Assembly: GCA_021371965.1 (NCBI GenBank)
Contig: JAJFVE010000029.1
Location: 1-32,345, forward strand
Direction: 5' to 3'
DNA from: Planctomycetaceae bacterium
GTDB lineage: Bacteria > Planctomycetota > Phycisphaerae > SM23-33
Length of the DNA stretch: 32,345 nucleotides
Position 1 is the stretch's first letter; each line of letters begins with the position of its first letter. Position numbers and translations under genes: made by a program. The notes beneath the pieces were generated by a model, which did not search any database, was not told the origin of the DNA, and was given only the letters and a program-made list of their open reading frames with translations. This document shows positions 5,009-32,345 of this stretch, piece after piece.

Positions 5009-5080
5009 GTCGTCCTCATGAAAAGGGGGGATGATCGCGAATGACGGATATTAACCATTATCTGAATGGTTCGCTCCCGC

Positions 5081-5119
5081 AAAAAAACGCCGCACTGCAA
5101 TCGCTTGCGGCGCGGCGTT
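5081..5119 (-). terminator. Rho-independent terminator downstream of the second rhamnosidase
   Basis: Read on the minus strand, the 8-bp stem AACGCCGC/GCGGCGTT (arms 5112-5119 and 5086-5093) is followed by seven T (plus-strand A run 5081-5087). An inner GCAA-TCGC-TTGC stem stacks in the loop. It lies just after the stop at 5142 and separates that gene from the deacetylase operon. Confidence 0.88.
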
Positions 5120-5141
5120 CGTTAATTCTCATCGCTCTTCT

Positions 5142-7856: not shown

Positions 7857-7862
7857 GATCGG

Positions 7863-7868
7863 CTCCTT
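7863..7868 (-). promoter_or_regulatory. Shine-Dalgarno AAGGAG fixing the rhamnosidase start
   Basis: AAGGAG on the minus strand sits six bases before the ATG at 7856. It rules out the upstream in-frame ATG at 7889, which would place this site inside the coding sequence. Confidence 0.85.
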
Positions 7869-7952
7869 GCGGGGATCGTAAGCTATCATCTATAACTGCG
7901 GCCTAATCAAAAGGGACCGGAATCGTTTATCGGGGGCGAACTGTACTGCGAC

Positions 7953-9989: not shown

Positions 9990-10250
9990 CACAGAGACAC
10001 AGAGAAATGCGAGAAGATGGGTATAAGAAACCACCACCTTTGGCTTCTCCTATTCCGTGAGGTTTGTGATGAGGATTATTCATAATCATCCTACGTGAGT
10101 TTTGGCCCCAGAGGGGCCTTCGTGCGTAGCCCAGGGCGCGGGGCGAGCGAAGTGAGCCCAAGCCCTGGGAATGATGCGTGGATTCAATGAGCCCCGGAGG
10201 GGCGGCCGTGACGATGGCAGACAATCACGTCCGCCCCGCCGGGGCTAGAT
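9990..10250. repeat. Gene-free stretch with REP-like GCCCC/GGGGC hairpins
   Basis: The 9741-10400 stretch holds no gene that I can support. It contains CCACAGAGACACAGAGAA (from 9991), a relative of the motif at 11866. It also holds a perfect GGCCCC-aga-GGGGCC hairpin (10104-10118), the long-range pair CCCAGGGC/GCCCTGGG (10130-10137 and 10162-10169), and GCCCC-gga-GGGGC (10191-10203), followed near 10231-10245 by CCGCCCCGCCGGGGC. Such GCCCCGGAGGGGC blocks are a common kind of dispersed intergenic repeat in planctomycetes (from memory, not searched). Confidence 0.6.
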
Positions 10251-10400
10251 GCGGAGGGGACTTGGACCCAAGGCTTGGCCCGAAGTCTGCTGTCGCAGCC
10301 TTCAGCCCTGCGCCCTGGGCCAAGAACGCTCTGCCTCTATGGGGCAAGGCAGCCCTGCTGACGCTATAATCATGGGATCTGTCCACCTATCTCGTGAGTC

Positions 10401-11078
10401 TCACGGCCCGCAAACCTCTCCACCCCTTACCCTCACGGTCTTGGGCAGGGCGCAGGTGAGGGTTTCAACGGCATCACATCCTCGTTTGAGGAACACCGCG
10501 ACCAATATGAACCGGATGATATAGGCAGCAGATCCAAGCAAGATCAGGATTAGAGCGATGTGATAGAAAATAGCTCCGACGTCGTGCGTTACGACGTTGA
10601 GAGCGAGGGTTATGAGGGTGATTGCGGAAACGATGCATGCAAGGCCACAGAGGCCGCTGATCATTCCTGCACGAATCATACTCCGTGAAGCGATTCTCCC
10701 GGCAAGGCCGCGGCGGACCAACAGATTATTGTACCATTGGCACCACTCAACATGTGCGGGGAAGGTCCAATAGCTGTTGAATAGCGGAAGCAACATTAGC
10801 CCGACCGCCTGTTGAGGCTTGATCCTGGCCGGTTGGACGGCTTCCCACATCCGGTAAAGAATGCTCATGTGTGCCAGCTTCATCATTATCCAAGCAATGA
10901 AAGCCAGCGATAGAAGCGATAGGGCTGTCAGGAAGTGAGTGAGAGGGAATCCGCCCTTGGGAATATGCACAAGCATGAAGAGGCCCGATGGCACGAGCAG
11001 GAACGAGATGCAACCTCGGATTACGAAGGCTCGATAATATCTGGGGGGCAGTTTTCCAATTGAGGTCTGCGGAGGCAT
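10401..11078 (-). CDS. DUF4328-like multi-pass membrane protein (225 aa)
   Basis: An integral membrane protein of unknown function. Hydrophobic spans lie near residues 20-40, 48-70, 92-110, 140-165 and 175-205. The segment YRMWEAVQPARIKPQQAVGL followed by PLFNSYWTFPAHVEWCQWYN matches the hallmark of a membrane family frequent in Planctomycetota, with a MW-A-Q core, P-AVG-PF-N-YW and then a soluble helix; the DUF4328 link is from memory. GAAAGG lies six bases before the ATG. The last 18 residues (TCALPKTVRVRGGEVCGP) are encoded by a dispersed repeat also found at 11197, so the original C-terminus was probably replaced. It stands alone in repeat-rich DNA. Confidence 0.75.
   Translation of the reverse strand: MPPQTSIGKLPPRYYRAFVIRGCISFLLVPSGLFMLVHIPKGGFPLTHFLTALSLLSLAFIAWIMMKLAHMSILYRMWEAVQPARIKPQQAVGLMLLPLFNSYWTFPAHVEWCQWYNNLLVRRGLAGRIASRSMIRAGMISGLCGLACIVSAITLITLALNVVTHDVGAIFYHIALILILLGSAAYIIRFILVAVFLKRGCDAVETLTCALPKTVRVRGGEVCGP
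10402..10452. repeat. Dispersed repeat, copy A (overlaps membrane-protein 3' end)
   Basis: This 51-base block (core ACCTCTCC-CCCTT-CCCTCACGGTCT) matches 11197-11248 at about 44 of 52 aligned positions in the same orientation. The two copies bracket the membrane-protein gene. Confidence 0.75.
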
Positions 11079-11851: not shown

Positions 11852-12053
11852 CTAGCCCGGATATTTCACCGCAGAGATCGCAGAGACCGCAGAGGTGTCT
11901 TGAATCAAAAGACTTACAGAAACTTTACGGAGTGGGCCTCATGGAGGTTTCTTCAGATTAGCGCCACTCGCGCCGTTAGATGGTCTTGTTTTAAGCCAAT
12001 CTTTTTCTCTGCGTACTTTGCGGTCTCTGCGGTTCACGCAGTTTTCGGGCTAG
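11852..12053. repeat. 202-bp MITE-like element with nested inverted repeats (GCAGAGATCGCAGAGACCGCAGAG)
   Basis: The ends are CTAGCCCG (11852-11859) and CGGGCTAG (12046-12053), exact reverse complements. Inside them the left arm, TTTCACCGCAGAGATCGCAG onward (to 11895), mirrors the right arm (12005-12037) closely. The arms are themselves short near-tandem GCAGAG units. It is non-coding and lies 40-240 bases upstream of the HTH gene. No target-site duplication could be recognised with confidence. Confidence 0.75.
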
Positions 12054-16310: not shown

Positions 16311-16356
16311 ATGGGCATCTTGCCCATGAGTAGCGCGGGCGTCTCGCCCGTGCTAC
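16311..16356. terminator. Twin hairpins between convergent genes
   Basis: ATGGGCA-tct-TGCCCAT (16311-16327) is followed by GTAGCgCGGGCG-tct-CGCCCGtGCTAC (16330-16356), a 12-bp stem with one G-T pair. They fill the gap after the dsbD stop and reach the DUF3999 stop at 16353. They could be a bidirectional terminator without T-runs, but the GCACGGGCGTCTCGCCCGTG type recurs at 29884, so this is also a dispersed repeat. Confidence 0.55.
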
Positions 16357-17738
16357 TGGGCGTCGTCTTCTGCAGGCGGCAGGGTCTTGAGTTTCCGCAT
16401 AATCGCGATCAGCAACAGCAAACCCACGCCGATCAGCAGGCCCCAGAGCAGCGCCTTGTAGCGTTCCGACCACGGCGCGACGCGCTCCTTCTTGTGGTAC
16501 GTGGGATTGTCCACAAGCGGACCCAGGCGAGCCTCGGTCAGGCCTTCCTTGGCCAGATTGTCGGCATAGTGTTCCAAGTCGTACTTCGGCCAGGATGCCT
16601 GGAGGTTGCCCACGAGCATCTGGTACTTTTGACCGGCCTTGGCCTGGAAGAGCACGAAGCCCTTCGCCCGCTGGACGGTGGCGCCGGTGAAGGTCAGCGG
16701 GGCGTTGTCGCCGTTGGCGATCTCGATGCGAAGATAGCGATACGCCGACTCCGCCGGCGGGGGCGAGAGTTCGAGCGACTGATCGACGTCGCCGGCGGCC
16801 GTGAAGCGGTGGATCGTGCCCGATGCCACGAAGTTCCACTCCGAGGCGATGGTCTTGCGCCGGACGCCGCCGCCTTCGACCTGCTCGACGACCTCCTGGG
16901 TCTGCTGGTTGCGCCCGCGGATGGAGTATGCCCGCGCGAAGTTCTTGTCTTCGAACGCCATCGTGATGCGGGCGATGGGCAGGTTCCGCAGCCCGCAGTC
17001 CAGCAGGATGATCGTCTTCTTGTCCTTGTCATGGGCACTGTCGGGCGGCGCGTTCTCGTCTGTCGGGTTTACAGTCGTCTGCTTGATCAGTACAGCCGCA
17101 AGCTCCGGCTCGATGGTCTTGCCGTGACGCGCGGACACGTCGGTGATGTCGATCTTGCCATTCTCGCTCTGTCCGTTGAAGACGGTGATGCGAAGATAGC
17201 GGAAGTCGTTATCCGGCAGATCCACTCGCCGCTTGTCGAACAGGCCGGGGATGCGGAAGAGCCAGCCGCCCTGGCGGAGCACCTGCCAGCTTTCGCCGTC
17301 GGCGCCGGCCTCGATCTGAACGCGGCGGCGGAAGTTGTCGCCGGAGGTGTTGATGAAGATTTCGTTCTTGAGGATCTTCTTTCCGAAGTCGGCTGTGACC
17401 TGGCTGAGCCCGCGGCCGGGGTCGAATGTCGCGTTGAGCAGGCGGGCGTTCTCCAGCACCGATTCCTCGTGGCTGGCCAGGCGCCCCGATCGCACGAGGC
17501 ACGGCGCGAAGGCGCCGCTGCTGTCGAGCAGCCGCACGTCGGCCAAGTTCGACCGCGATGCGTCGAACACTTCACCCGGAAGGTCGATGCGCGCCAGCCC
17601 GCGATCGGCTGGGCCCTGCAACTCGACCGGGGCGGTCCTCTGCCAGGCGGACGTGTCGGCCGGCGCGGTTGCGGCGGGCTGGGCGAAAGCAGAGGCGGCC
17701 GCAACCAGAACCGTTGCCAGTATCGTGGTCTTGCTCAT
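16353..17738 (-). CDS. DUF3999-like exported membrane protein (461 aa)
   Basis: Function unknown. It has a signal peptide (MSKTTILATVLVAAASAFAQ), a long periplasmic part of beta-sandwich character containing repeated YLRI strands (DFRYLRITVFNG, then AYRYLRIEIANGD), and one C-terminal transmembrane helix (ALLWGLLIGVGLLLLIAIM) ending in a short basic cytoplasmic tail. This matches the DUF3999 family, whose genes are typically adjacent to DUF2339 genes (from memory). Here the start overlaps the stop of the DUF2339 gene by four bases (ATGA), a strong sign of coupled translation and a joint complex. The periplasmic part may bind a ligand or polymer. The pair may work in envelope assembly, but that is conjecture. 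Confidence 0.82.
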   Translation of the reverse strand: MSKTTILATVLVAAASAFAQPAATAPADTSAWQRTAPVELQGPADRGLARIDLPGEVFDASRSNLADVRLLDSSGAFAPCLVRSGRLASHEESVLENARLLNATFDPGRGLSQVTADFGKKILKNEIFINTSGDNFRRRVQIEAGADGESWQVLRQGGWLFRIPGLFDKRRVDLPDNDFRYLRITVFNGQSENGKIDITDVSARHGKTIEPELAAVLIKQTTVNPTDENAPPDSAHDKDKKTIILLDCGLRNLPIARITMAFEDKNFARAYSIRGRNQQTQEVVEQVEGGGVRRKTIASEWNFVASGTIHRFTAAGDVDQSLELSPPPAESAYRYLRIEIANGDNAPLTFTGATVQRAKGFVLFQAKAGQKYQMLVGNLQASWPKYDLEHYADNLAKEGLTEARLGPLVDNPTYHKKERVAPWSERYKALLWGLLIGVGLLLLIAIMRKLKTLPPAEDDAQ

Positions 17739-20050
17739 GGTGCAGGTTCCTCGAGTTTGGGCTGGCTTGGGGCCAGGCGTTTTTCGAGCTTGTGGTAGAG
17801 GTAGGCCGAGCCGATCAACAGCAGGCCCAGACCCATGAACGATAAGATGCGGTAGACGTCCTTGACGTGCATCATGTCGACGAAGACCAGTTTCAGTGCC
17901 GCCAGGGCGAACAGGCCCAAGGCTGCCAGCCGCACCGGCCGCAAACGCCTGGCGAAGCCCGCGTACAGCATCGTCAGGGCGAACAGCCCCCACACCAGCG
18001 TAATGGACATCTGCCCGGCGCGCTCGGCCTTGGCCGAATCGGCAATGCTGTTGAGGCAGTATGCCCACGCCTCGCCCGAAAGCAGGATCAGCAGCCCGGC
18101 CAGGGCAGCCCACAGTATCGCAGCCGCAAACGCTTTGCCCTCGCCACTGGCGCCAAGGGCGATCGTCCGCGCGAACAGCAGTGCCATCGCCACGACCGCC
18201 GCTGCGGCCAGCATCCGCACGTTGACCAGCAGCACGTGCTCGCCGAAACGCGGGAAGGAGTACGCGCCGAAGGTGCAGATCATCGCCACGGCCAGCGCCG
18301 CCAGGCCCACCGCGTAGACGGCCATGTTTCGCGTGCGGGCGCCGGTCAGCAGATAGACCGCCGCCCCGGCTGTCCAGAGGAAGATCGCCCCGAGCGTCGC
18401 ATAGTACTCGGCGTTGGCGGCAGCGCCCTCGCGCACGATGTACTGCCACAACTCCGAGTGCAGCAGCGAGAGGCCCAGGATGCCCGCCGCCAGGGCCACG
18501 ACCAGTTCGACCGCGCGGTCGGCGGCCGTGGCCTTGGCGCGGTAGAGCCGGCCCACCAGCGCGAAGACGCCCATCGCCAGCGGCACCATCGCGGCGCTGA
18601 TGAACTGCTTGTTCCAGAATATCACGAAGAGCCCGTCGTGGTCGGGCCAGTGCTCGCCCAGCAGGGTGACGATGCCCACCGCCAGCACCATCGCCGCCAG
18701 TACGCGCGCCGGCTGATAGCGGTACCGGTACGCCAGGAACAGCAGCACCGGCCCCTCGGCCACCCACGCCAGCATGATCCCGTTGGCCGAGAGGTGCAGC
18801 GGGACGGCCAGCGTCAGGAAGGTGACGGCCATGACGATGCTGGCCAGGAGCGAGCGGGTGTCGGTTTCGACGCGGCGGCGCAGCAGCGCGCCCACCGCCA
18901 GGTACGACGCGGCCATGCCCAGGGCGATGAAACCCAGCGTGTAGTTGTACTGCCCATAGAGCATCGTCCAGGCCATGATCATGTAGAACGTGGCGTTGAC
19001 GATGGCCATGAGGAACCGCTCGACGCCCACGGCCGTGCGCGTCGCCAGGTTGTACGCGAAGGGCTCGATCAGGAAGACGAGGTAGAAGATCGTCAGCCAG
19101 ATCATCGCCGGCGCGAGTTGGGGCAGGTCGTAATGCTGGCCGTACCAGCCGGCGTAGAGAACGATCGTGCCGACCAGTGCCAGCGCGTCCAGGGCCCGGA
19201 AGTTTCGCCACAGCGCCACGGCCAGCACGCCCAGGTCGAGGATCAGCAGGTAGGTGAACAGAGCCTCGCGGCGATTCTCGCCCGTCGAGACCAGCACCGG
19301 TGTGAGCAGCCCGCCCAGCAGCGCCAGAAACGCCAGAGTCAGTGCGTTGTATCGCACGGCCAGCGCCACGCCGATGGCCGTCACGACAACCATGAACGCA
19401 AACGCCACGGCGTTGTCCATCACCTTGGGCTCGTACACCGAACAGGCGCTGTAGAACGTGGCGTACAGCACGCCCAGGCCCAGGCCGATGATTCCCTGGC
19501 CGAGGATGCGCCATTTCTTCTCCAGGCAGAAGATGCCCGCCGCAATGGCGACCATGCCGCCCAGGGCACAGAGGAAGACCTGCGCGGTCGGGCCGATCCA
19601 GTCGTTGTCGAAGGCGTACTTGAGGAAGAAGACCGCCCCCAGCAGCAGCACGACCGCGCCGGCCCAGGTCATCCACTTCTTGCCGATCTGCGACTCCATG
19701 CTCTCGCCCGCCGGCGCTGGCGGGACCGTCGGCTCCGCCCAGACGCGCTGCGGCGCCGGGGCACGCTCAAGTTCAGGGATCGGCGGCGGTGCTTGCGGGG
19801 CCGCAGGCGCCGGCGCCAGAGTGACTGGCGTGGGCGCGGCGGCGGGCGCCGACGCCGGACGCGCCGGTGCGGCCGGCATGGCGCCGGAAGCGATGCGCCG
19901 CTCGATGTTGGCCAACCGTCCCAGCGCCTCGCTGAGGCTTCGCCGCATGCGGCTGAGTTTTACCAGAGCCACGATCGCCAGAATGGCGCCCGTCAGACCC
20001 ACCGGCAGCAGGATGACCAGCAGAACCAGAGCGAAGATAACTTCTTCCAC
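17735..20050 (-). CDS. DUF2339 polytopic membrane protein (771 aa)
   Basis: A very hydrophobic protein with one N-terminal helix, a Pro/Ala-rich linker (about 55-115) and then some twenty transmembrane helices, beginning with IGKKWMTWAGAVVLLLGAVF, the usual opening of the DUF2339 domain. No function is established. I place the start at the GTG at 20048-20050, because GGGGAG sits seven bases upstream (20058-20063); a TTG five codons earlier has no ribosome site. It is translated just before the DUF3999 partner, with four-base overlap. A joint envelope role is likely. No catalytic motif was seen. Confidence 0.85.
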   Translation of the reverse strand: MEEVIFALVLLVILLPVGLTGAILAIVALVKLSRMRRSLSEALGRLANIERRIASGAMPAAPARPASAPAAAPTPVTLAPAPAAPQAPPPIPELERAPAPQRVWAEPTVPPAPAGESMESQIGKKWMTWAGAVVLLLGAVFFLKYAFDNDWIGPTAQVFLCALGGMVAIAAGIFCLEKKWRILGQGIIGLGLGVLYATFYSACSVYEPKVMDNAVAFAFMVVVTAIGVALAVRYNALTLAFLALLGGLLTPVLVSTGENRREALFTYLLILDLGVLAVALWRNFRALDALALVGTIVLYAGWYGQHYDLPQLAPAMIWLTIFYLVFLIEPFAYNLATRTAVGVERFLMAIVNATFYMIMAWTMLYGQYNYTLGFIALGMAASYLAVGALLRRRVETDTRSLLASIVMAVTFLTLAVPLHLSANGIMLAWVAEGPVLLFLAYRYRYQPARVLAAMVLAVGIVTLLGEHWPDHDGLFVIFWNKQFISAAMVPLAMGVFALVGRLYRAKATAADRAVELVVALAAGILGLSLLHSELWQYIVREGAAANAEYYATLGAIFLWTAGAAVYLLTGARTRNMAVYAVGLAALAVAMICTFGAYSFPRFGEHVLLVNVRMLAAAAVVAMALLFARTIALGASGEGKAFAAAILWAALAGLLILLSGEAWAYCLNSIADSAKAERAGQMSITLVWGLFALTMLYAGFARRLRPVRLAALGLFALAALKLVFVDMMHVKDVYRILSFMGLGLLLIGSAYLYHKLEKRLAPSQPKLEEPAP

Positions 20051-20057
20051 TTTGTAT

Positions 20058-20063
20058 CTCCCC
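20058..20063 (-). promoter_or_regulatory. Shine-Dalgarno GGGGAG fixing the DUF2339 GTG start
   Basis: GGGGAG on the minus strand lies seven bases before the GTG at 20050, favouring that codon over the TTG at 20065, which has no upstream site. Confidence 0.75.
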
Positions 20064-20089
20064 AACAGCAGGCGTTGACAAGACTATAA

Positions 20090-20217
20090 CAACAGTAACC
20101 GGTAGCCGGTAGCCCAAAACGGTAGCCGGTGGCCAGTAGCCAGTGGACAGTATTCAAGAGCGATGCAAGCTTGCCGTTATTGTTGTCACCGGCTACTGGC
20201 TACGGGCTACCGGCTAC
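20090..20217. repeat. GTAGCC-type inverted-repeat element, copy 1
   Basis: The left arm holds GTAGCCGGTAGCCC and CGGTAGCCGGTGG (20102-20133). The right arm (20188-20217) reads CCGGCTACTGGCTACGGGCT onward, nearly its reverse complement. The arms flank a loop of about 55 bases. Outside, ACAACAGTAACCGG (left) partly mirrors CCGTTATTGTTGTC (right). Non-coding, between the DUF2339 promoter side and the isomerase-like gene. Confidence 0.8.
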
Positions 20218-20265
20218 TTTTTGCATGGCAAAAGAATCCAAGGGAGGATATCGTCCAACCCGCCC

Positions 20266-20272
20266 AAAGGAG
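20266..20272 (+). promoter_or_regulatory. Shine-Dalgarno AAAGGAG fixing the isomerase-like GTG start
   Basis: AAAGGAG lies eight bases before the GTG at 20281. The longer frame opening at 20143 runs through the inverted-repeat element and is not used. Confidence 0.8.
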
Positions 20273-20280
20273 CGTTCAAC

Positions 20281-21774
20281 GTGGCAGCCAAAAAGAAGAC
20301 CAAGGCAATCGAATCGTTTGAAGTCACCGGCGGCGCCGCCAGCGGCGACCTGCTCACCCAGCGCCGCGGCGACAAACCCCTCGTCGTCGGCGTGTTGGCG
20401 TGCGCGTACTTCGAATACTGGCGCATGTACGCCAACCTGCATGACGAGGTCGCCTCGGACATGCAGACCGTCGCCGACCGCATCGGCCGCCGGCACGAGG
20501 TGGTGTACCCCGGTCTGGTCGACACGCTCGACGCCGCCGACGCGGCTGGGCGCATGTTCAAGGACAAGCAGATCGACGCCCTGGTCATCACCGAGGGCAC
20601 GTACTGCACCGACTACATCGTGCACCAGGCGCTGCTGCACCTGCCTGCCGACATGCCCATCTGCATCTTCGCCTGCCAGGCGCACCCCAAGCTGAACTTC
20701 GAAACCGGCTACGACCAGGCGCTGCGCAACAGCGGGCCGATGGGGCTGGTGCAGCTCACGGCCGGCTTTCGCAAGATGGACCGCTACGCCAACTACGAGG
20801 TGGTCGTCGGCTCCGTCGACGACGAAGAAGCCTACGCCGAGATCGACCGCTTTGTGGCCGTCCGCACGACGATCAGCAACCTGCGCCACTGGAACATCGG
20901 CCTCATCGGACACGTGTTTCGCGGGATGTACGACTTCCAGTACGACAAGACGGCCGTGGCGGGCAAACTTGGGCCCAACGTCATCGATATTGACATCCGC
21001 CACCTGGCGGCGATTTTCGACGAGACCTCGCTCGACGACCCGCGCGTGCGCAAACTCTCTGCCAAGGTACACGCCAGCTACAAGGTCGTCACGCTGACCG
21101 ACGACGAGATCCGCCGCTCGGCGCGGCTGGCCGTGGCCCTGCGCGAACTGGTGGGGCGGTACAAGCTCGACGGGCTGGCACTGCTGGGCCAGCACCATAT
21201 CGAGGCCCGCGCCAACGCCACGTGCTACCTCGGCCTGGCCGAGATGCTCGAGGCCGACCAGGCGCTGGCCGTCACCGAGGGCGACGTGCTGGGTCTGATC
21301 ATGACCAAGGTGCTCAAGGACTTCACCGGCCGCACGCCGTTCTTCGGCGAATGGGAGGAAGTCGATACGTCTCTCAACGCCGTGATGCTGCTGGGCCACG
21401 GGTTCATCGACCCGCGCGAGGCCCGGGCGGACATGCCCGTGCAGGTCCAGCCGGCGTGCGAGAACTGGGGCTTCGAGGGCAACAGCCTGGGCTTCCAGGC
21501 TACCTACGCCGCCGGGCCGGTGACGCTGACGCACGTGATCCAGGACGCCAAAGGCTGGCGGCTGCTGGTCAGCGAGGGCGAGATCCTCGACACGCCGCCG
21601 CTGAAGATTTCCGAGACGAGCATGATCGTCCGAGTCGATCGCCCCGTAAAGCACTACTTCCGCGACCTGCTGAAGATGGGTTTCGCCCACCACGCGATAG
21701 CCGCCCCCGGCCGAGCAGGCGCCCAACTCGAAGCCTTCGCCGAGCAGCTGGGCATCGAGGTCTGCCGACTGTGA
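20281..21774 (+). CDS. L-fucose/L-arabinose-isomerase-like protein (497 aa)
   Basis: Predicted cytoplasmic sugar isomerase-fold protein. It shows the fold's hallmarks: an N-terminal Rossmann-like domain (PLVVGVLACAYFEYW), a HWNIGLIGHVFRGMYDF stretch typical of the fucose/arabinose isomerase group, and a C-terminal domain with candidate metal-binding Glu/His around DGLALLGQHHIE and EGDVLGLIMTKVL. Length (about 470-590 in the family) fits. The start is GTG at 20281 with AAAGGAG eight bases upstream. Substrate is unknown; fucose, arabinose, rhamnose and others are all possible, and many members of this group are uncharacterised. It is followed by a URO-D-like gene and then an AraC regulator, with GTAGCC elements between them, suggesting a sugar-use neighbourhood. 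Confidence is high for the family and low for the substrate. Confidence 0.85.
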   Translation: MAAKKKTKAIESFEVTGGAASGDLLTQRRGDKPLVVGVLACAYFEYWRMYANLHDEVASDMQTVADRIGRRHEVVYPGLVDTLDAADAAGRMFKDKQIDALVITEGTYCTDYIVHQALLHLPADMPICIFACQAHPKLNFETGYDQALRNSGPMGLVQLTAGFRKMDRYANYEVVVGSVDDEEAYAEIDRFVAVRTTISNLRHWNIGLIGHVFRGMYDFQYDKTAVAGKLGPNVIDIDIRHLAAIFDETSLDDPRVRKLSAKVHASYKVVTLTDDEIRRSARLAVALRELVGRYKLDGLALLGQHHIEARANATCYLGLAEMLEADQALAVTEGDVLGLIMTKVLKDFTGRTPFFGEWEEVDTSLNAVMLLGHGFIDPREARADMPVQVQPACENWGFEGNSLGFQATYAAGPVTLTHVIQDAKGWRLLVSEGEILDTPPLKISETSMIVRVDRPVKHYFRDLLKMGFAHHAIAAPGRAGAQLEAFAEQLGIEVCRL

Positions 21775-21780
21775 CAAAGC

Positions 21781-21935
21781 AGTAGCCAGTAGCCGGTAGC
21801 CGGTGGCCGGGAAGACAGCGGTGCCATTGCACCCTGTTGGGCATCGTATGGCGGGACCTTCGAACTTGCCTTAGAATCAAACGTGCGGCACGGCTATCGA
21901 CTACTGGCTACCGGCTACCGATTACGGGCTACTAC
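21781..21935. repeat. GTAGCC-type inverted-repeat element, copy 2
   Basis: Left arm AGTAGCCAGTAGCCGGTAGC (21781 on, to 21810), right arm CTACTGGCTACCGGCTACCG (21901 on, to 21935) with about 80 bases between. It fills the gap between the isomerase stop and the URO-D-like start. The right arm ends three bases before that ATG. Confidence 0.82.
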
Positions 21936-21938
21936 ATT

Positions 21939-23060
21939 ATGAACGACTTGGAACGTTTTCACGCGTGCATGGACTATCAGCCTGCCGACCGGCGGCCGAA
22001 TTGGGAACTCGGCGTTTGGCCGCAGGCGGTTGCGCGGTGGCAGACCGAGGCGCCCGAGGCCGTCAAAGACTTTCGGTGGAACTGGTTTGTCGAGGAACCG
22101 GCGATAGGGCTGGACCGGCGCGAGTTTATTGGCGTGCATTACGGGTTCATGCCCGGTTACCAGTACGAGGTGCTTGAGGAGACCGAGCAGTACATCGTCG
22201 CGCGGAACTGGAACGGGATCGTCACCAAGGCCCTCAAGGAAGGCTCCATCGGCGGGGCGCGGATGTGCATGGACGAGTACATCGGGTTTCCCGTCCGCAC
22301 GCCGGAGGATTGGCCCGATGTAAGGCGGCGACTCGTGGCGGCCGTCAGCGACCGCTACCCCAAAAACCTCGACGAGCAGATCGCCGCGTGGAAGACCCGC
22401 ACCTGCCCGCTGATCCTGGGCGGCAACTGTGCGGCCAACGGGTTCTACTGGCGGGCTCGCGAGTGGATGGGCACCGAGGGGCTGTCTTTCGCGTGGTACG
22501 ATTACCCCAAGATGATGCACGAAATGATGGAGTTCTACGCCGACTTCATCATCGAGACCAGCCGGCCGGTGCTGGAAAAGATTTCGGTCGACTACTTCAC
22601 GCTCAACGAGGACCTGTCGATGAAGTCTGGGCCGCTGCTGGGGCCCGACACGTTCCGCACGTTCATCTTTCCGCACCTCAAGCGGATGGTCGAGTTCTTC
22701 AAGAGTCACGGCGTGAAGTACTTCGCCATCGACACCGACGGCGACCCGACAGTGCTGATACCCCTGTTCATGGACGCCGGCGTGGACTGCGTCTGGCCCA
22801 TCGAGCGGGCCAGCGGCGTCTCGCCCCAGGCCTGGCGCAAGAAGTTCGGCAAGAGCCTGCGCCTCTGGGGCGGCGTCGACAAGCGCGTGCTGGCCACCAC
22901 CAAGCCGGCGATCAAAAAGCACCTGCAGGAGATGGCCCCGCTGATCGAAGAGGGCGGGTTCATCCCCAGCGTCGACCACACCGTTCCCCCGGACGTGTCG
23001 TGGGAGAACCTCATGTACTACTTTGAAGCCAAGCGAGACCTGCTGGCAGGAAGACACTAG
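21939..23060 (+). CDS. Uroporphyrinogen-decarboxylase-like protein (373 aa)
   Basis: A (beta/alpha)8 member of the URO-D superfamily, which also holds cobalamin-dependent methyltransferases; the reaction cannot be assigned. Features are the N-terminal MNDLERFHACMDYQPADRRP (the usual opening of the family's planctomycete members), a central DYFTLNEDLSMKSGPLLGPD with LGPDTFRTFIFPHLKR, DTDGDPTVLIPLFMDAGVD, and the C-terminal LWGGVDKRVL. Such paralogues are abundant in Planctomycetota and are not heme-synthesis enzymes as a rule. The ATG at 21939 has no Shine-Dalgarno because the GTAGCC element ends directly before it, so it may be translated as a leaderless or coupled message. Other starts upstream are inside the element. 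Its neighbours suggest a carbohydrate or one-carbon role. Confidence 0.85.
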   Translation: MNDLERFHACMDYQPADRRPNWELGVWPQAVARWQTEAPEAVKDFRWNWFVEEPAIGLDRREFIGVHYGFMPGYQYEVLEETEQYIVARNWNGIVTKALKEGSIGGARMCMDEYIGFPVRTPEDWPDVRRRLVAAVSDRYPKNLDEQIAAWKTRTCPLILGGNCAANGFYWRAREWMGTEGLSFAWYDYPKMMHEMMEFYADFIIETSRPVLEKISVDYFTLNEDLSMKSGPLLGPDTFRTFIFPHLKRMVEFFKSHGVKYFAIDTDGDPTVLIPLFMDAGVDCVWPIERASGVSPQAWRKKFGKSLRLWGGVDKRVLATTKPAIKKHLQEMAPLIEEGGFIPSVDHTVPPDVSWENLMYYFEAKRDLLAGRH

Positions 23061-23349: not shown

Positions 23350-24240
23350 ATGACGTCAGCCACTGATCATCCCCAAAGCAGTCCGCAACCGCACGACGGC
23401 CATCTCAGTGCGGCCGGATCGAACGATCGCTTTGTCACCCACAGCGAGCTGCCGCAACTGGACAAAAGGCATATCGCCATGGTCGGCATGTCCACATGGA
23501 CGGCGCAGTCGTACTCGTTCTCGCGCTGCCATGAATTGTCGCAACTGGTGGCCGTCATCAGCGGGCGGTGCGAGTTCTGGGTCAACGGGCAATGGCGCCG
23601 GGCGGGGGCGGGGGACCTGTTCTTGTGCCCGGCCCGCGGTGTCGGCGGGGTGCGGGTGCGGCAGAGGAAGATGCGGTTCGTGGCCGTCCTGTATTCGCAG
23701 GCTGCGGTCGAGTCTTTGATAGCGGCCGAGCCGGTCCTGGCCGAGGCCGATGTGTGGGGGCTGGAGCATGCGGCAGGGGGGCTGCTGCGCGAGTGGGCTG
23801 CCGCGGCGCCGGCCAACGTGCTCGAATGCCTCATCGACCTGGTGGACGTCCAGGCGGTGCGGCTGATGGGACAGGAGCCCGCCCCCGGACGCCTGGCCGA
23901 CTTGTGGGAGACGGTCGAGCAGGATATCGGCTCTGCCTGGGCGCTGGAACGCATGGCCGGCCTGATGGGCCTGTCCGAGCAGCACCTCTCGCGGCTGTGC
24001 CACAGCGAGCACAACGACAGCCCCGTGGCGCACCTGGCCAAGCTGCGGATGCGCCGGGCTGCCCAACTGCTGCAAACGACGGAAACGTCCATCGCCGCCC
24101 TGTCGGCCTTGGTGGGCTACCAGTCGCAGTTCGCCTTCAGCAATGCTTTCAAGCGGCATTTCAAAATCTCGCCGCTGGCCTACCGCAAGGCACACCGGCA
24201 GGGGGAGGCCGAACCGCCCGCACCGGCCAATCCCGCCTGA
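23350..24240 (+). CDS. AraC-family transcriptional regulator (296 aa)
   Basis: Predicted cytoplasmic DNA-binding activator/repressor. An N-terminal cupin-like sensing domain (about 45-130; HELSQLVAVISGRCEFWVNG, GDLFLCPARGVGG) is followed by a linker and a C-terminal double HTH (about 185-283), with LERMAGLMGLSEQHLSRLC as the first helix pair and LSALVGYQSQFAFSNAFKRH as the second, ending with FKISPLAYRK. The ATG at 23350 was chosen because the frame upstream lacks family similarity; AGGCGAG lies about five bases before it, though not ideally spaced. It probably regulates the preceding isomerase and URO-D-like genes or itself; the ligand is unknown. Confidence 0.88.
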   Translation: MTSATDHPQSSPQPHDGHLSAAGSNDRFVTHSELPQLDKRHIAMVGMSTWTAQSYSFSRCHELSQLVAVISGRCEFWVNGQWRRAGAGDLFLCPARGVGGVRVRQRKMRFVAVLYSQAAVESLIAAEPVLAEADVWGLEHAAGGLLREWAAAAPANVLECLIDLVDVQAVRLMGQEPAPGRLADLWETVEQDIGSAWALERMAGLMGLSEQHLSRLCHSEHNDSPVAHLAKLRMRRAAQLLQTTETSIAALSALVGYQSQFAFSNAFKRHFKISPLAYRKAHRQGEAEPPAPANPA

Positions 24241-27246: not shown

Positions 27247-27279
27247 CGGGCGGCCGCGCTTTCGCAAGCGGGCCGCCCG
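27247..27279 (-). terminator. Terminator of the first PEP-CTERM gene
   Basis: CGGGCGGCC (27247-27255) pairs with GGCCGCCCG (27271-27279); an inner CGCTT-TCGC-AAGCG stem stacks with one bulged G. On the minus strand TTTGTAT follows. The gene's stop lies at 27314. The arms are the same GGGCGGCC as in the terminator at 30060. Confidence 0.82.
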
Positions 27280-27313
27280 GTGGGCTGCACTCAGTTACAG
27301 TAAAACTATCCGC

Positions 27314-28531
27314 CTATTTGCGACGGCGGATCAGGGCCGCCAGACCCCCCAGGGCCAGCAGGCTCATCGTCGCCGGCTCCGGGATCGTGCCGGCAAAGCT
27401 GACGGTTATACGATCATCGTTGATCATGGTGTTGATGTCGCCCACATGGCTTCCGGCCCAGCGGAAGATCCAGTCGTCGGCCTTGCCGATCACGGTGTAG
27501 CCGCCGGACTCAAAGACGTTGTAGGCAAACGTGTCGTTGTCGAACACCAAGTTCATCGCGCTGCCTGCGGCGATGTCCAAGGCGCTGGTCGTCAGCCCGT
27601 CGGTCTGCCCGACGATCTGGCTGAAGTTGAGGACGCTGGCCGTCTCCTGGCCGATGGTCACCAGCGAAACGGTCACGGCGCCGGTCATGTCCAGCGTGGC
27701 CCCGCCGCTGTAGTCGCCCAGGCTGATGCCCGAGCCGGTCGTGATGGAAACCTTCCCGGCTGTGGGAGTGTTGGCAAAGTCCAGAGCATTCGTCGAGTTG
27801 TTTCGGAATCGCAGGATCGGCGATTCGGTGAAGTTGAGCTGCGAGTCGCCGCTCAGGGTCGCTTTGCCGTAGAAATATTCCTCCCAATTGCCGCCGGCGT
27901 TGACGACCGCCCCGTTGGTAAGGTTGAGCTCGCCGCCGGCCCAGATGGCCAAAACAGAGGTGAAGCCGATGGTCGCGCCGTCAATGTTCAGCACGCCGGT
28001 CCCGCCGCCAAGGTACAAGCCGGCGAAGTCTGTTCCGCTGGAGGCGGAGCCGATGTTCAGCGTGGCATTACTGTCATCGCCGATCTGGAGGTTCGTGCCG
28101 GTCGACGACACCGAAACCTTCCCGCCCGTGGGCGCGTTGGCAAAGGCAAGGGTACTGACCGAGTTGGCGCGGAATACGATTGTCCCTGCCACGTTCACTT
28201 GTGACGTGGCGTCGATGTTCATTGCACCGGTGCTGTAAAGGTACAACGCCTCGCCAGTGGAGTTGAAGTTGACGACCGCGCCGTCAGTGACGTTGAGTAT
28301 ACTGCCATCTAAGCCCACCCCGCCGGCAGAGTCTACCGTGCCAGGGTTACCCCCGACGAGCCCGACATTCACCACGTTCCCCGAGACCCACCCGCCCGGC
28401 GCGCCGCCGGACCAGTCCGCGCCGTTATCCCAATCGCCCGGCGTGACCTGCAGCGTCGTCTCGGCCTCGGCGGCGCTGACCAGCGCCATAATGCATGCGA
28501 TTGCCAATGCGGTCGTCAGTCTGTGTTTCAT
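27314..28531 (-). CDS. PEP-CTERM sorting-domain surface protein, copy 1 (405 aa)
   Basis: A predicted exported protein processed by exosortase and held at the envelope. It has a signal peptide (MKHRLTTALAIACIMALVSA), a passenger of repeated short beta strands typical of autotransporter-like beta-helices (GVLNIDGATIGF, AALDFANTP-type units), and the C-terminal sorting tag IPEPATMSLLALGG with a hydrophobic helix and an RRRK end. No catalytic site. AAAGGAAGAG lies just before the ATG. It is transcribed away from a XylR-type regulator 184 bases off and shares strong similarity with the protein at 30130, including the tail and N-terminal TPGDW-N. The exosortase gene itself is not in the window. 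Ligand or partner unknown. Confidence 0.9.
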   Translation of the reverse strand: MKHRLTTALAIACIMALVSAAEAETTLQVTPGDWDNGADWSGGAPGGWVSGNVVNVGLVGGNPGTVDSAGGVGLDGSILNVTDGAVVNFNSTGEALYLYSTGAMNIDATSQVNVAGTIVFRANSVSTLAFANAPTGGKVSVSSTGTNLQIGDDSNATLNIGSASSGTDFAGLYLGGGTGVLNIDGATIGFTSVLAIWAGGELNLTNGAVVNAGGNWEEYFYGKATLSGDSQLNFTESPILRFRNNSTNALDFANTPTAGKVSITTGSGISLGDYSGGATLDMTGAVTVSLVTIGQETASVLNFSQIVGQTDGLTTSALDIAAGSAMNLVFDNDTFAYNVFESGGYTVIGKADDWIFRWAGSHVGDINTMINDDRITVSFAGTIPEPATMSLLALGGLAALIRRRK

Positions 28532-28640
28532 AATCTCTTCCTTTCTCTCTTGGGGACCTGACTCACTTGCAGCCCATTTCGCGTCATTCGCGTATGTTCA
28601 CTTTACCTCAACATCGTTATTTGTATATAGCTATTATATA

Positions 28641-28669
28641 TTAACCACGTCGACATTTTAGTATATACT
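28641..28669 (+). promoter_or_regulatory. Candidate sigma-70-type promoter for the first XylR-type regulator
   Basis: TTAACC (28641-28646), a 17-base spacer and TATACT (28664-28669), 45 bases before the ATG at 28715. The whole region is AT-rich, with ATAGCTAT and GTATATAC palindromes, and serves both divergent genes. On the minus strand TATAAT is visible but no matching -35 box was seen. Confidence 0.5.
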
Positions 28670-28714
28670 GGAACCAGCGTCGCCGGCCACGCCCGGCGAA
28701 AAGGGAAGCCTGCT

Positions 28715-29875
28715 ATGCGCACAACAGCTCTCTCGCGCCGCATTCTGGTTCTAGGCCTGGGGCCGTACGATCCGGTGGCGATGGCACTGACCGATTGGGC
28801 GCGCCAGAGGGCGTGGGCGATGATCTTCTCGAAGAAGGATGGCCCGTTGGCGGGCATGGTGCGGCAGTGGCAGGCCGACGCCGTGATCGTCGGAGCCAAC
28901 GTCAGCACCCAGGACATGAGAAGGTGGCCGCGCGGACGTGTGCCGATGGTCTGGCTGCACGACCTTGAAGGGCGCCGCTACGGCGCCGGCAGCGTGCTGC
29001 TGGACCATTACGCCGCTGGCAGATTGGCCGCCCGTCATTTCGTTGACATGGCCTTTCGACATCTGGCCTACTGCTGGCTGGGCGATCTGTGGATGCTCAA
29101 CCGCCAATTGGAGGGGTTCCGCCAAGCCGCGCAGGAGGGCGGCTGCACGGTGCACACCCTGGATTGGCCGCGGCAGGCGGCGAAGGGGCTGGGCGCATCG
29201 TACAGCGTCACGTTTCGCCGGTGGCTGGTCAAACAGGTAGCCGCCCTGCCCAAACCACTGGGCCTCATGGTCGAGAGCGACTGGACGGGCCTGGAGGCCT
29301 TGACGGGCTTGCGCGAGACAGGAGTACTCGTGCCCGACGAAGTGGCGATCGTCTCCTGCTACAACATCGCGCCGGTCTGCGAAGGGGCTCTGGTGCCGCT
29401 GACCAGCGTGGACATGAACTGGCCCGAGCAGGGACGCCAGGCCATCGAGATGATGGACCGCCTCTTCCAGGGCGAAGAACCGCCCGCCGAGCCGCTGTGG
29501 GTCGCTCCCCAAGGCGTGGTGCCCCGCCAAAGCAGCGACGTTGTGGCCGTGCCTCACATGGGTGTCGCCAAGGCAATGCACATGATTCGTCGGGACTTCC
29601 GCGACGACAGTCTTACCGTCGGCCGCATGGCCCGAACCATCGGGATTTCCTCCTTCGCGTTGAACTGGGCGTTTCGCAAGTATCTGGGCCGCTCGCCGGG
29701 CGAGCAGTTGCGCCAATGGCGGCTTCGGGAGGCGATGTCGCTGCTGGCGACGACCAAGCGAAAAATCAAGGACATCGCCGCCGCCTGTGGGTACGGTACG
29801 GTCGATCAATTCATCCGATGCGTGCGAGCCGCCACCGGCCAAAGCCCCGCCGCCTGGCGGAAGAAGCAGTTGTGA
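28715..29875 (+). CDS. XylR/AraC-type transcriptional regulator, copy 1 (386 aa)
   Basis: Predicted sugar-responsive regulator. The N-terminal 270 residues resemble a LacI/periplasmic-binding-like ligand domain (RILVLGLGPYDP, LKPLGLMVESDWTGLE, VAIVSCYNIAPVCE, PLTSVDMNWPEQG), as in XylR; the C-terminal 105 residues form the AraC double HTH, with SLTVGRMARTIGISSFAL as the first and IKDIAAACGYGTVDQFIR as the second helix pair, ending TGQSPAAWRKK. A weak GGGAAG lies before the ATG. It is divergent from the PEP-CTERM gene at 28531 and most likely controls it. Its closest relative here is the protein at 31584. The ligand is unknown. Confidence 0.88.
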   Translation: MRTTALSRRILVLGLGPYDPVAMALTDWARQRAWAMIFSKKDGPLAGMVRQWQADAVIVGANVSTQDMRRWPRGRVPMVWLHDLEGRRYGAGSVLLDHYAAGRLAARHFVDMAFRHLAYCWLGDLWMLNRQLEGFRQAAQEGGCTVHTLDWPRQAAKGLGASYSVTFRRWLVKQVAALPKPLGLMVESDWTGLEALTGLRETGVLVPDEVAIVSCYNIAPVCEGALVPLTSVDMNWPEQGRQAIEMMDRLFQGEEPPAEPLWVAPQGVVPRQSSDVVAVPHMGVAKAMHMIRRDFRDDSLTVGRMARTIGISSFALNWAFRKYLGRSPGEQLRQWRLREAMSLLATTKRKIKDIAAACGYGTVDQFIRCVRAATGQSPAAWRKKQL

Positions 29876-29883
29876 GTGGTGCC

Positions 29884-29999
29884 GTAGCACGGGCGTCTCG
29901 CCCGTGAGTCGCATGGGCGTCCCCAAGGGACAGGTCCCGCCCATGCTCTTGCCGTGTGGCATGGGCGTATCCTGAGCCTGTCGAAGGACCCGCCCATGC
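29884..29999. repeat. Three successive hairpins between the modules
   Basis: CACGGGCG-tct-CGCCCGTG (29888-29906), GCATGGGCG/CGCCCATGC (29911-29919 and 29938-29946) and a second GCATGGGCG/CGCCCATGC (29959-29967 and 29991-29999). The last loop holds GAGCCTGTCGAAGGACC, which I recall as a widespread intergenic repeat (not searched). The first hairpin is kin to the one at 16330. Confidence 0.7.
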
Positions 30000-30059
30000 T
30001 CCCCGATCCCCGAAGTCATGGACACGCACAACGGAGTTGCGCCTGGCACCCGCCAAAAC

Positions 30060-30095
30060 AACGGGCGGCCGCGATGTTCAATCTGGCCGCCCGTT
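30060..30095 (-). terminator. Terminator of the second PEP-CTERM gene
   Basis: AACGGGCGGCC (30060-30070) pairs perfectly (11 bp) with GGCCGCCCGTT (30085-30095), loop of 14. On the minus strand GTTTTGG follows. It sits 35 bases past the stop at 30130 and shares the GGGCGGCC arms with the terminator at 27247. Confidence 0.85.
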
Positions 30096-30129
30096 GCGAC
30101 TGCACACGTTACGAGTCACAGATTACGGA

Positions 30130-31419
30130 TTACTGCCTCTTTCTACGAATCAGCGTCGCCAGACCGCCCAGGGTCAGCAGGCTCATCGTTGCCGGCTCGG
30201 GGATGTTCGAGATATACCCGACGTACGTGTAGTTGTCCTCGGCGTTGTAGAAGATGCTCACATCGAGCGGCGCGCCGCTCCAGGTCAGCCGCCCGTCCTC
30301 GGGAGCAGCGTAGGCTTTGAGGGTGGCTTCGTGATCGCCCAACCAGCGCAGGGCCCAGTCCAAGCCGGCCAATTCGGTTCCGTCGAACACGAGATTCAGC
30401 AGGCTTCCGTCCACGATAGAGAACGTCCCGTTAAGCGTCAGGCCATTCTGCTGTCCAGCGACCTGGTTGACATTCGCCTGGCCGCCGATGTCGGCAGAAC
30501 TGTTGAAGGTCACGGCAGCGCCCGTCATATTGATCACACCCGCTTGGCTGTTATCCCATGTGCTCAACACGCCGAACTGGACGCCATCGGACCCGGCATC
30601 CATGTTCAGGGTGGCGGGGCCTTGGTCGCCCACGATGAGCCATGAGTCGGTCGAGACAGAAACCTTTCCATCTGTGGGCGTGTTGGCAAAGTCCACGCTG
30701 TTCACGCCGGCGCGGAAATACATCGATCCCGCTACATTGACCCGCGACGTGCTGTCCAGGTTGAGGGCGTCAGAATTGCCCACGAACAGACTGTAGCCGC
30801 CGCCGAGATTGACGACCGCCCCTGCGGTCAAGTTGAGCTTGCCGCCAAGGCTGGCGCCTTCGGTGAATCCGATGGTCGCCCCGGCGATGTTAATCACGCC
30901 CTGATTCCCGCCATCCCAAGAGCTCAGCGTGTAGAACGATGTTCCGTCGGACCCGGCCCCGATGTTGAGTGTGGCGGGACCTTGGTCGCCCACAACGAGG
31001 GTTGAGGCGGACGACGAAACCGAAACCTTCCCGCCCGCGGGCGCGTTGGCAAAGTCCATGCTGTTCGTGCCGGCGCGGAAGAACATTGACCCGGCCACGT
31101 TGATCTGTGACGTCGGGTCGACGGTGAAAACGTCTGAGGTGTAGACAAACACATAGCTGCCGTTGAAGTTGACGATCCCGCTATTGGCAACGGTCAGGCT
31201 GCCGCCGGTGTCGAAGAAAGGATCGCCGGCCATGTTGGCTGTTCCCACCGACCCGTTGACCGTGACCGTGTCGGTCGGTTGCGGGGCACCATTGGTCCAG
31301 TGGGCGGGATTGGTCCAATCGCCCGGCGAAGTCTGCAGGGCCGTCTCTGCGGCCGTGGCCGCGCCCGCCAGGGCCAACACCGCCGCTAATGCCAGAGTTG
31401 TCAATACTGTGTGTTTCAT
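30130..31419 (-). CDS. PEP-CTERM sorting-domain surface protein, copy 2 (429 aa)
   Basis: An exported surface protein of the same family as the one at 27314. The ATG at 31419 is chosen because AAGGAA lies before it and it begins a clean signal peptide (MKHTVLTTLALAAVLALAGA). The body is beta-helix-like and contains an internal duplication of about 120 residues: INVAGSMFFRAGTNSMDFAN with GPATLNIGAGSDG and VNVAGSMYFRAGVNSVDFAN with GPATLNMDAGSDG. The tail is IPEPATMSLLTLGG with a hydrophobic stretch and RRKRQ end, the exosortase tag. It is transcribed away from the XylR-type gene at 31584, with a promoter and dyad in between. The real function is unknown; exosortase is not in the window. Confidence 0.9.
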   Translation of the reverse strand: MKHTVLTTLALAAVLALAGAATAAETALQTSPGDWTNPAHWTNGAPQPTDTVTVNGSVGTANMAGDPFFDTGGSLTVANSGIVNFNGSYVFVYTSDVFTVDPTSQINVAGSMFFRAGTNSMDFANAPAGGKVSVSSSASTLVVGDQGPATLNIGAGSDGTSFYTLSSWDGGNQGVINIAGATIGFTEGASLGGKLNLTAGAVVNLGGGYSLFVGNSDALNLDSTSRVNVAGSMYFRAGVNSVDFANTPTDGKVSVSTDSWLIVGDQGPATLNMDAGSDGVQFGVLSTWDNSQAGVINMTGAAVTFNSSADIGGQANVNQVAGQQNGLTLNGTFSIVDGSLLNLVFDGTELAGLDWALRWLGDHEATLKAYAAPEDGRLTWSGAPLDVSIFYNAEDNYTYVGYISNIPEPATMSLLTLGGLATLIRRKRQ

Positions 31420-31475
31420 CTCTTGTTCCTTTCTTTGAGAACTGGACCTACCCATGGCCATTTCAGATGCACCGC

Positions 31476-31503
31476 ATTATACCGGAACGCCGGTATTAGT
31501 AAA
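31476..31503 (-). promoter_or_regulatory. Candidate promoter with dyad ATACCGG-aacg-CCGGTAT in the spacer
   Basis: On the minus strand TTTACT (31498-31503), a 16-base spacer and TATAAT (31476-31481), about 57 bases before the ATG. The perfect 7-bp inverted repeat at 31479-31496 covers the -10 and the spacer. It is a plausible operator for the neighbouring regulator. The other module shows no copy of it. Confidence 0.6.
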
Positions 31504-31583
31504 TAGTGATGTTACATTTGCTGATCGATGTTATGGTATAGTGGCTTTTTCGCCCGCGACACGTAGGGCAACGAGGCAGGACT

Positions 31584-32345
31584 ATGTCCGATATCATCCT
31601 ATCGCCGCGAGTTCTGATACTCGACACGGACCTGTTTCACCCTCTCGCCGCCGGGATCACCGATTACGCCCGACAGGCCGGCTGGTCGAGCTCGATCCTG
31701 TTCGCCCAGAGGGGCAATGCGTCGATCGCAAATATGGTGAAGAGTTGGGGGGCCGACGCGGTCATCGTCGGGGGCACCCCGCATGGCGGGGACTATCGAA
31801 GATGGCCTCGAGGGCGCACGCCCATGGTCTTGACGCACGATCGGGGCGGCCTGCAGTACGGCGCCGCCGACGTTGTGCTGGGCTTCCGCGCCGCCGGCGA
31901 GATGGGCGGGCAGCACCTCGTCGATCTGGGCTTGCGCAACCTGGCCTATTGCTGGCTGGGCAACTGGTGGCCGCTGAATGAGCAGTTGGAAGGCTTCCGC
32001 GCCGCCGCCGAGGCGGCCGGAGGCACGGTGCATGTGCTGGACTGGTCCTGGCGAGCGGCAAAGGGAGTGGGGCGATCGTACAGCGCCGCGATACGCCGCT
32101 GGCTGGCCGAGCAGGTTCGACCGCTACCCAAGCCGCTGGGGCTGATGGTCGAGAGCGACTGGACGGCGCTGGAGGCCGAGGCGGCGTTTAGCGAGGCGGG
32201 AATCCGGATCCCGGAGGATGTGGCGATCGTCTCGTGCTACAACCTGGCGCCGCTGTGCGAGGGCGCGATCGTGCCGCTGTCCAGCGTGGACATGGACTAT
32301 CACGAGCAGGGCTACCAGGCCGCCGCGATGCTCGACCGCCTGATC
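31584..32345 (+). CDS. XylR/AraC-type transcriptional regulator, copy 2, 3' part missing
   Basis: The visible 254 codons cover the sugar-binding-like N-terminal domain, closely similar to the protein at 28715: shared YCWLG, LEGFRxAA, AAKGxGxSYS, PKPLGLMVESDWT and VAIVSCYN, CEGAxVPLxSVDM. The C-terminal AraC HTH lies past the window end. The ATG at 31584 has a GGCAGGA a few bases upstream. It is divergent from the PEP-CTERM gene at 31419 and is inferred to control it. The family call rests on the full-length paralogue. Confidence 0.87.
   Translation, partial: MSDIILSPRVLILDTDLFHPLAAGITDYARQAGWSSSILFAQRGNASIANMVKSWGADAVIVGGTPHGGDYRRWPRGRTPMVLTHDRGGLQYGAADVVLGFRAAGEMGGQHLVDLGLRNLAYCWLGNWWPLNEQLEGFRAAAEAAGGTVHVLDWSWRAAKGVGRSYSAAIRRWLAEQVRPLPKPLGLMVESDWTALEAEAAFSEAGIRIPEDVAIVSCYNLAPLCEGAIVPLSSVDMDYHEQGYQAAAMLDRLI

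Follow-up and report, generated by a model that had tools for sequence, protein, structure and literature searches.

Divergent PEP-CTERM/regulator modules form a real and amplified arrangement in this lineage: in a related MAG of 5.2 Mb (here G447), which carries close relatives of the regulators studied, 14 of the 15 members of one specialised clade of XylR-type regulators are transcribed divergently from a PEP-CTERM gene. We propose, with a probability of roughly 60%, that these units are self-contained cassettes, amplified in the lineage, in which a conserved local switch and its promoter box would be coupled to an exchangeable surface-protein output.

Two consecutive units in the window

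The window, i.e. the whole stretch of 32,345 nucleotides that was analysed, contains two consecutive units, each composed of a PEP-CTERM gene on the minus strand, AT-rich divergent intergenic DNA and a regulator gene on the plus strand. The features are as follows:

27247 to 27279, minus strand: GC-rich, terminator-like hairpin behind PEP-A, with a weak T tract (folding against shuffles)
27314 to 28531, minus strand: PEP-A, PEP-CTERM protein of 405 aa (PF07589, 27.1 bits; cut-off 20.7)
28618 to 28675, no strand: Box A, AT-rich candidate operator in the gap between PEP-A and regulator A (58-base alignment with the A promoter of G447)
28715 to 29875, plus strand: regulator A, 386 aa, LacI/GalR-type sensor and AraC-type HTH (Peripla_BP_3, HTH_18)
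29884 to 30052, no strand: intergenic repeat separating the two modules (partial kin at many fetched G447 loci)
30060 to 30095, minus strand: GC-rich, terminator-like hairpin behind PEP-B (folding against shuffles)
30130 to 31419, minus strand: PEP-B, PEP-CTERM protein of 429 aa and paralogue of PEP-A (PF07589, 21.8 bits; cut-off 20.7)
31494 to 31540, no strand: Box B, candidate operator (promoter comparison; core 31494 to 31514)
31584 to 32345, plus strand: sensor part of regulator B, truncated by the window end (Peripla_BP_3)

Both surface proteins score above the PF07589 cut-off for the C-terminal PEP motif, transmembrane helix and basic tail; the start codon of PEP-B was picked by comparison with PEP-A and the protein P0077, the ORF itself extending to 31461. 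Regulator A has the XylR-type architecture, a LacI/GalR-like sensor followed by a C-terminal AraC-type HTH. The same holds for regulator B when the sensor in the window is taken together with the HTH_18 match listed for its complete form, P0002 (395 aa, same 111.8-kb contig), the HTH part of which lies beyond the window. The regulators are 60% identical over their full length (56% over the part inside the window) and the surface proteins 39-41%, which bears out the sequence-only reading of two units with the same parts in the same order and pairwise paralogous products. The bases around the terminators, also noted there as related, are indeed so, with 88% identity over 59 nt of PEP-CTERM tail DNA. 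As to the terminators themselves, the folding stood, since both GGGCGGCC hairpins fold better than their shuffles (z -4.4 and -3.9; 0 of 200 shuffles as good), but a terminator scan, which needs a T tract, reported neither of them. A fresh tandem duplication was considered as the origin of the pair and abandoned, because A and B belong to distinct orthologue lines (97% and 95% in G447) that stand in the opposite order there.

An AlphaFold2 model of PEP-A built from 5 sequences (mean pLDDT 82) predicts a beta-strand-rich body with an N-terminal helix, a signal peptide by inspection, and a C-terminal sorting helix. A structure search against the PDB gave no significant match (best E 0.13); beta-helix proteins were frequent near the top of the results, and a beta-helix-like fold is only suggestive. 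Among 5.8 billion proteins searched, with 7,996 candidates scored, four relatives besides PEP-A itself were found at E 1e-5, namely PEP-B and three PEP-CTERM proteins of Planctomycetaceae MAGs.

Other parts of the window hold two alpha-L-rhamnosidase genes flanking a polysaccharide deacetylase (1506-7889) and a gene with an L-fucose isomerase C-terminal domain (20143-21774). A further AraC-type gene (23374-24240) has a 75%-identical relative in G447 in other surroundings, directly after a clade regulator (L162 6887-7747). Two dispersed repeats, at 10070-10367 and 11852-12052, occur many times in G447, in several cases at the end of a contig, and may break assemblies. Long ORFs occur on both strands at 16311-20089; the gene calls there are doubtful, since dN is about equal to dS against G447 and the two plus-strand ORFs have no Pfam family at E 1e-4.

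Pairing across a related genome

G447 was found in a sample of 397 genomes from the class to which a distant relative belongs. With at most four candidates scored per genome, it was the only member of this sample above 321 bits, and a phylum sample of 392 genomes scored to the same depth gave no match above that value. At E 1e-85 there were no matches in the other 34 genomes of its family or in 37 of its order, a scan of genome contigs returned relatives of at most 34% identity, plasmids gave a single match (25% identity), and no relatives were found on viral contigs. Twelve accepted window genes have counterparts in G447 at 75-95% DNA identity, from which we infer that it is near kin of the window genome; large DNA blocks are shared at 79-89% identity. 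The pairing survey is based on this one related MAG and the window, both genomes being assemblies from environmental samples.

The genome contains 15 clade regulators (E 1e-85 or better, with a clade cut-off of 290 bits that was our own choice), 25 HTH_18 genes, 93 PEP-CTERM matches (E 1 or better) and two exosortase genes (PF09721). The single clade regulator without a divergent PEP-CTERM gene (L160 5155) sits behind another regulator of the same cluster. Among all AraC-type (HTH_18) genes, 18 of 25 are divergent from a PEP-CTERM gene: the 14 clade members, another two genes of XylR type and two AraC-type genes outside the XylR type. About one pair or fewer would be expected (1.15 at a pool of 1000 genes, hypergeometric P 8e-21), the gene pool being an assumed 1000-4000 genes, over which P is 8e-21 or less. 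In naming neighbours, unlabelled ORFs below 105 aa were skipped, which matters for L161, L162 and L164. The AraC-type genes L161 10759-11706 and L177 2407-3414 fall outside the XylR-type model and are also divergent from PEP-CTERM genes.

The regulators of G447 are therefore not equally often found beside unrelated genes, and the repeatable divergent module with a specialised regulator clade that had been proposed from the sequence holds in this genome. The proposal went too far in giving each exosortase-sorted protein a dedicated switch: seen from the PEP-CTERM side (90 of the 93 matches used, the three weakest being dropped; 89 became genes), only 27 of 89 genes, and 18 of 66 transcription-unit leads, lie behind a divergent AraC-type regulator. 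The "sugar-sensing" that it ascribed to the regulators follows only from their LacI/GalR-type domain, which may point to a sugar as ligand class.

A regulator clade and its relatives elsewhere

A tree was calculated from 65 chosen regulators (2 from the window, 18 from G447, 15 relatives including P0002, and 30 from outside G447). The window regulators, the 15 clade genes of G447 and nine of the 15 relatives group together in a branch of 26 rows (SH-aLRT 95, quick search), to which the remaining XylR-type regulators of the tree do not belong, and 16 of the 17 regulators of this branch with known context face a PEP-CTERM gene.

Outside G447 the picture differs, as 95 of 98 XylR-type regulator rows (95 distinct loci, three being listed twice; a few rows are without an upstream ORF) have no divergent PEP-CTERM gene. 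Many of these flanks cover only 1.5 kb, so that the pairing observed there is a lower bound. The three positive cases are L097, L122 and L123, the PEP-CTERM ends of the last two being recognised by eye and not by HMM. Wider flanks at 21 loci gave no further divergent case; at one locus (L248), a PEP-CTERM-like gene lies upstream of the regulator in the same orientation. Elsewhere in the class, the divergent neighbour of L239 and L242 is a type II pseudopilin-like gene, and one lies near L240, L243 and L244; these genes were recognised by eye from FTLVELLVVI-type N-termini. Such neighbours suggest a wider link of XylR-type regulators with secreted proteins.

The scarcity of pairing outside G447 would suit the explanation that these are nutrient regulators of the ordinary kind, with distant targets, beside which PEP-CTERM genes lie incidentally. 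We consider this quite improbable, given that 14 of 15 clade regulators face a PEP-CTERM gene and that exact cores of the promoter box described below occur only at the A and B divergent promoters.

A shared box in the A and B promoters

Pairwise comparison of the A and B promoters from the window and from G447 gave, in all six cases, a better score than 300 of 300 shuffles. The A promoters of both genomes align over 58 bases, and since similarity is poor in the remainder of the A intergenic DNA, the box looks like a footprint. A degenerate core has two exact matches in the entire G447 and two in the window, all of them at A and B promoters, as compared to a mean of 0.01 in window shuffles; the pattern was derived from the same promoters in which it was then found. 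One search for the core was over G447 loci totalling 538,608 bases, some of them overlapping in part, and another over the whole assembly. With two mismatches allowed, three further places appear in G447, against five for a backwards control pattern, so that only exact matches discriminate. At the promoter of regulator C and at the promoters labelled 15137 and 6512, a shared box was sought and none was found, with 8 to 296 of 300 shuffles scoring equally well. In the approximate recognition helices, almost all residues are common to A and B, and those of C differ.

Before PEP-B lies a promoter-like site (31503-31476, 10/12), whose -35-like hexamer (31503-31498, minus strand) falls inside the core of box B. 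Promoter-like sites numbered 3 against 1.0 (sd 1.2) in shuffles, which is weak alone. We propose that the regulator, with its periplasmic-binding-protein-like sensor and AraC-type HTH, would bind the box in the shared divergent promoter and act on the neighbouring gene for an exosortase-sorted surface protein, most likely by activation at the -35 region; it probably regulates itself as well.

One-to-one activation is not the only arrangement that these data could accommodate. The regulators may be repressors that release the surface-protein genes only on sensing a ligand, as the LacI/GalR-type sensor could indicate, or there may be cross-talk between cassettes, for which cross-recognition is likely because the box and most recognition-helix residues are common to A and B. 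Repression or cross-talk appears to us a possible, though less favoured, arrangement: the overlap of the box with the -35-like hexamer before PEP-B fits activation, although it is also compatible with repression, and AraC-type HTH proteins are mostly activators.

Conserved regulators with differing partners

Regulators A and B of the window share 96.6% and 94.9% identity with their G447 orthologues, which both lie on one contig (C2). The orthologue of regulator A faces an unrelated PEP-CTERM protein of 268 aa (E 0.57 against PEP-A), and identity between PEP-B and its counterpart is 42%. Regulators that are almost the same in both genomes thus face different surface proteins, which speaks against strict co-inheritance of the two halves. 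In 60-base bins, identity is 0.92-1.0 within regulator A (28780 to 29860) and 0.33-0.70 outside the border bins. For regulator B the conserved block extends through the promoter into the first part of the PEP gene; in PEP-B it is the middle that diverges, with start, promoter, C-terminus and hairpin region retained. Read in the direction of the regulators, module A precedes module B in the window and follows it in G447. Counterparts of the genes to the left of PEP-A are found elsewhere in G447 (L201, contig C44), beside another PEP-CTERM gene of the PEP-A/B family; no regulator was present there within the 7.3 kb fetched.

Between the window and G447, dS is 0.125 for regulator A and 0.127 for regulator B, and 0.25-0.85 for the 12 accepted window genes, which hints at exchange after the lineages split. 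Some ORFs were set aside from these values: 16311-17798 (dS 0.27) and 17867-20089 (dS 0.14) are probably not read in the true frame, as their dN and dS hardly differ, 21837-23060 is no orthologue (33% identity), and 25672-27009 matches in part only (44%, dS 0.98); 10401-11078 had no match among the fetched G447 loci. The low dS of 17867-20089 counts against the hint. The main alternative to this hint is a possible error in the binning or assembly of contig C2 (24 kb); it would weaken the arguments from low dS and module order and leave the contrast between regulator and partner identity unaffected. Since the comparison between genomes concerns PEP-CTERM genes of modules only, all PEP-CTERM proteins may evolve fast. 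The case for exchange rests on two assemblies, and the process itself is what these comparisons would imply.

Within G447, regulator similarity and lead surface-protein similarity of 14 modules are not correlated (Mantel Spearman -0.21, p 0.97; Pearson 0.06, p 0.24). When the two window modules were added, Pearson became positive (0.26, p 0.007), with Spearman at -0.10 (p 0.90) over the 16 modules. Partners match in six module pairs. L169 and L170 match in both regulator and partner, and two pairs criss-cross, in that the G447 partner of A matches that of L167 and the partner of C matches that of L166, although the closer regulators are A and C on the one hand and L166 and L167 on the other. 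Some units therefore seem to have duplicated whole and others to have swapped partners. The sequence-only reading had named non-matching trees of the two partners as a refutation; judged by these similarities, the outcome went largely against it, and the mismatch argues against strict co-inheritance, not against the module.

That reading amounts to a stable, co-evolving module which duplicates as a unit, the differences between genomes being just fast divergence of the surface proteins. The relatedness of L169/L170 and of the window units A and B in both halves, the positive Pearson value over 16 modules and the preserved ends of PEP-B are in its favour. It appears rather unlikely to us, as the G447 partner of A has no detectable homology to PEP-A, the partner families criss-cross against the closer regulator pairs, and identity changes sharply at the borders of the regulator blocks.

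We therefore prefer exchangeable cassettes to a stable module. The lineage would have amplified the unit to about 15 copies, with regulator and box as the conserved half and the surface protein as the exchangeable half; recombination between cassettes or genomes would replace or remodel the PEP-CTERM gene, the place beside the switch being retained. More tentatively, the cassettes may serve as a surface-variation system, in which switch and box are a fixed socket and surface genes are exchanged between cassettes or related species, so that the signal would stay constant and the display would vary.

Relation to known systems

The closest functional parallel, by analogy, would be an AraC-family regulator beside a sortase-anchored surface antigen, as in the YSIRK-antigen regulators (TIGR04094), where an AraC-type HTH regulator likewise adjoins the gene of a sorted surface protein. 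In excerpts of the respective reports, Spy1337 is divergent from R28 and was proposed to activate both genes (PMC7098570), and deletion of ebrB lowered esp expression (PMC3669262); an amplification to about 15 units or an exchange of partners is absent from these excerpts on Spy1337/R28 and EbrB/Esp. Those systems are of the Gram-positive LPXTG/sortase type, whereas the present one is of the PEP-CTERM/exosortase type. Regulator A falls outside TIGR04094 (18.3 bits against a cut-off of 200, HTH only), and no YSIRK string was seen by eye in PEP-A or PEP-B.

The order of a LacI/GalR-type sensor and an AraC-type HTH is shared with E. coli XylR (PDB 4FE4, 4FE7), which regulator A matches at E 1e-16 over residues 171-382. 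In contrast to other XylR-type regulators, the adjacent divergent genes here are PEP-CTERM genes, and the clade is separate in the tree. A cis-site and regulator dedicated to PEP-CTERM genes are known from PrsK/PrsR, which, in the part of the source consulted, is a single two-component system with a sigma-54 site, reported there for Proteobacteria only (PMC1569441), whereas many local one-component regulators are found here. A Zur-controlled cyanobacterial exoprotein, for which an excerpt mentions PEP-CTERM (PMC10957091), would indicate that other controls of PEP-CTERM proteins exist. In the open-licence literature, we found no paper linking AraC- or XylR-type (or LacI-family, or divergent) regulation to PEP-CTERM genes. 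Local AraC control of sorted surface proteins is thus a known theme, of which we found no description in the divergent PEP-CTERM arrangement.

With 18 of the 25 AraC-type genes of one genome facing single surface-protein loci, the question of what PEP-CTERM proteins respond to becomes testable with one regulator and one promoter. Partner exchange, if confirmed, would be a route to surface diversity in environmental bacteria.
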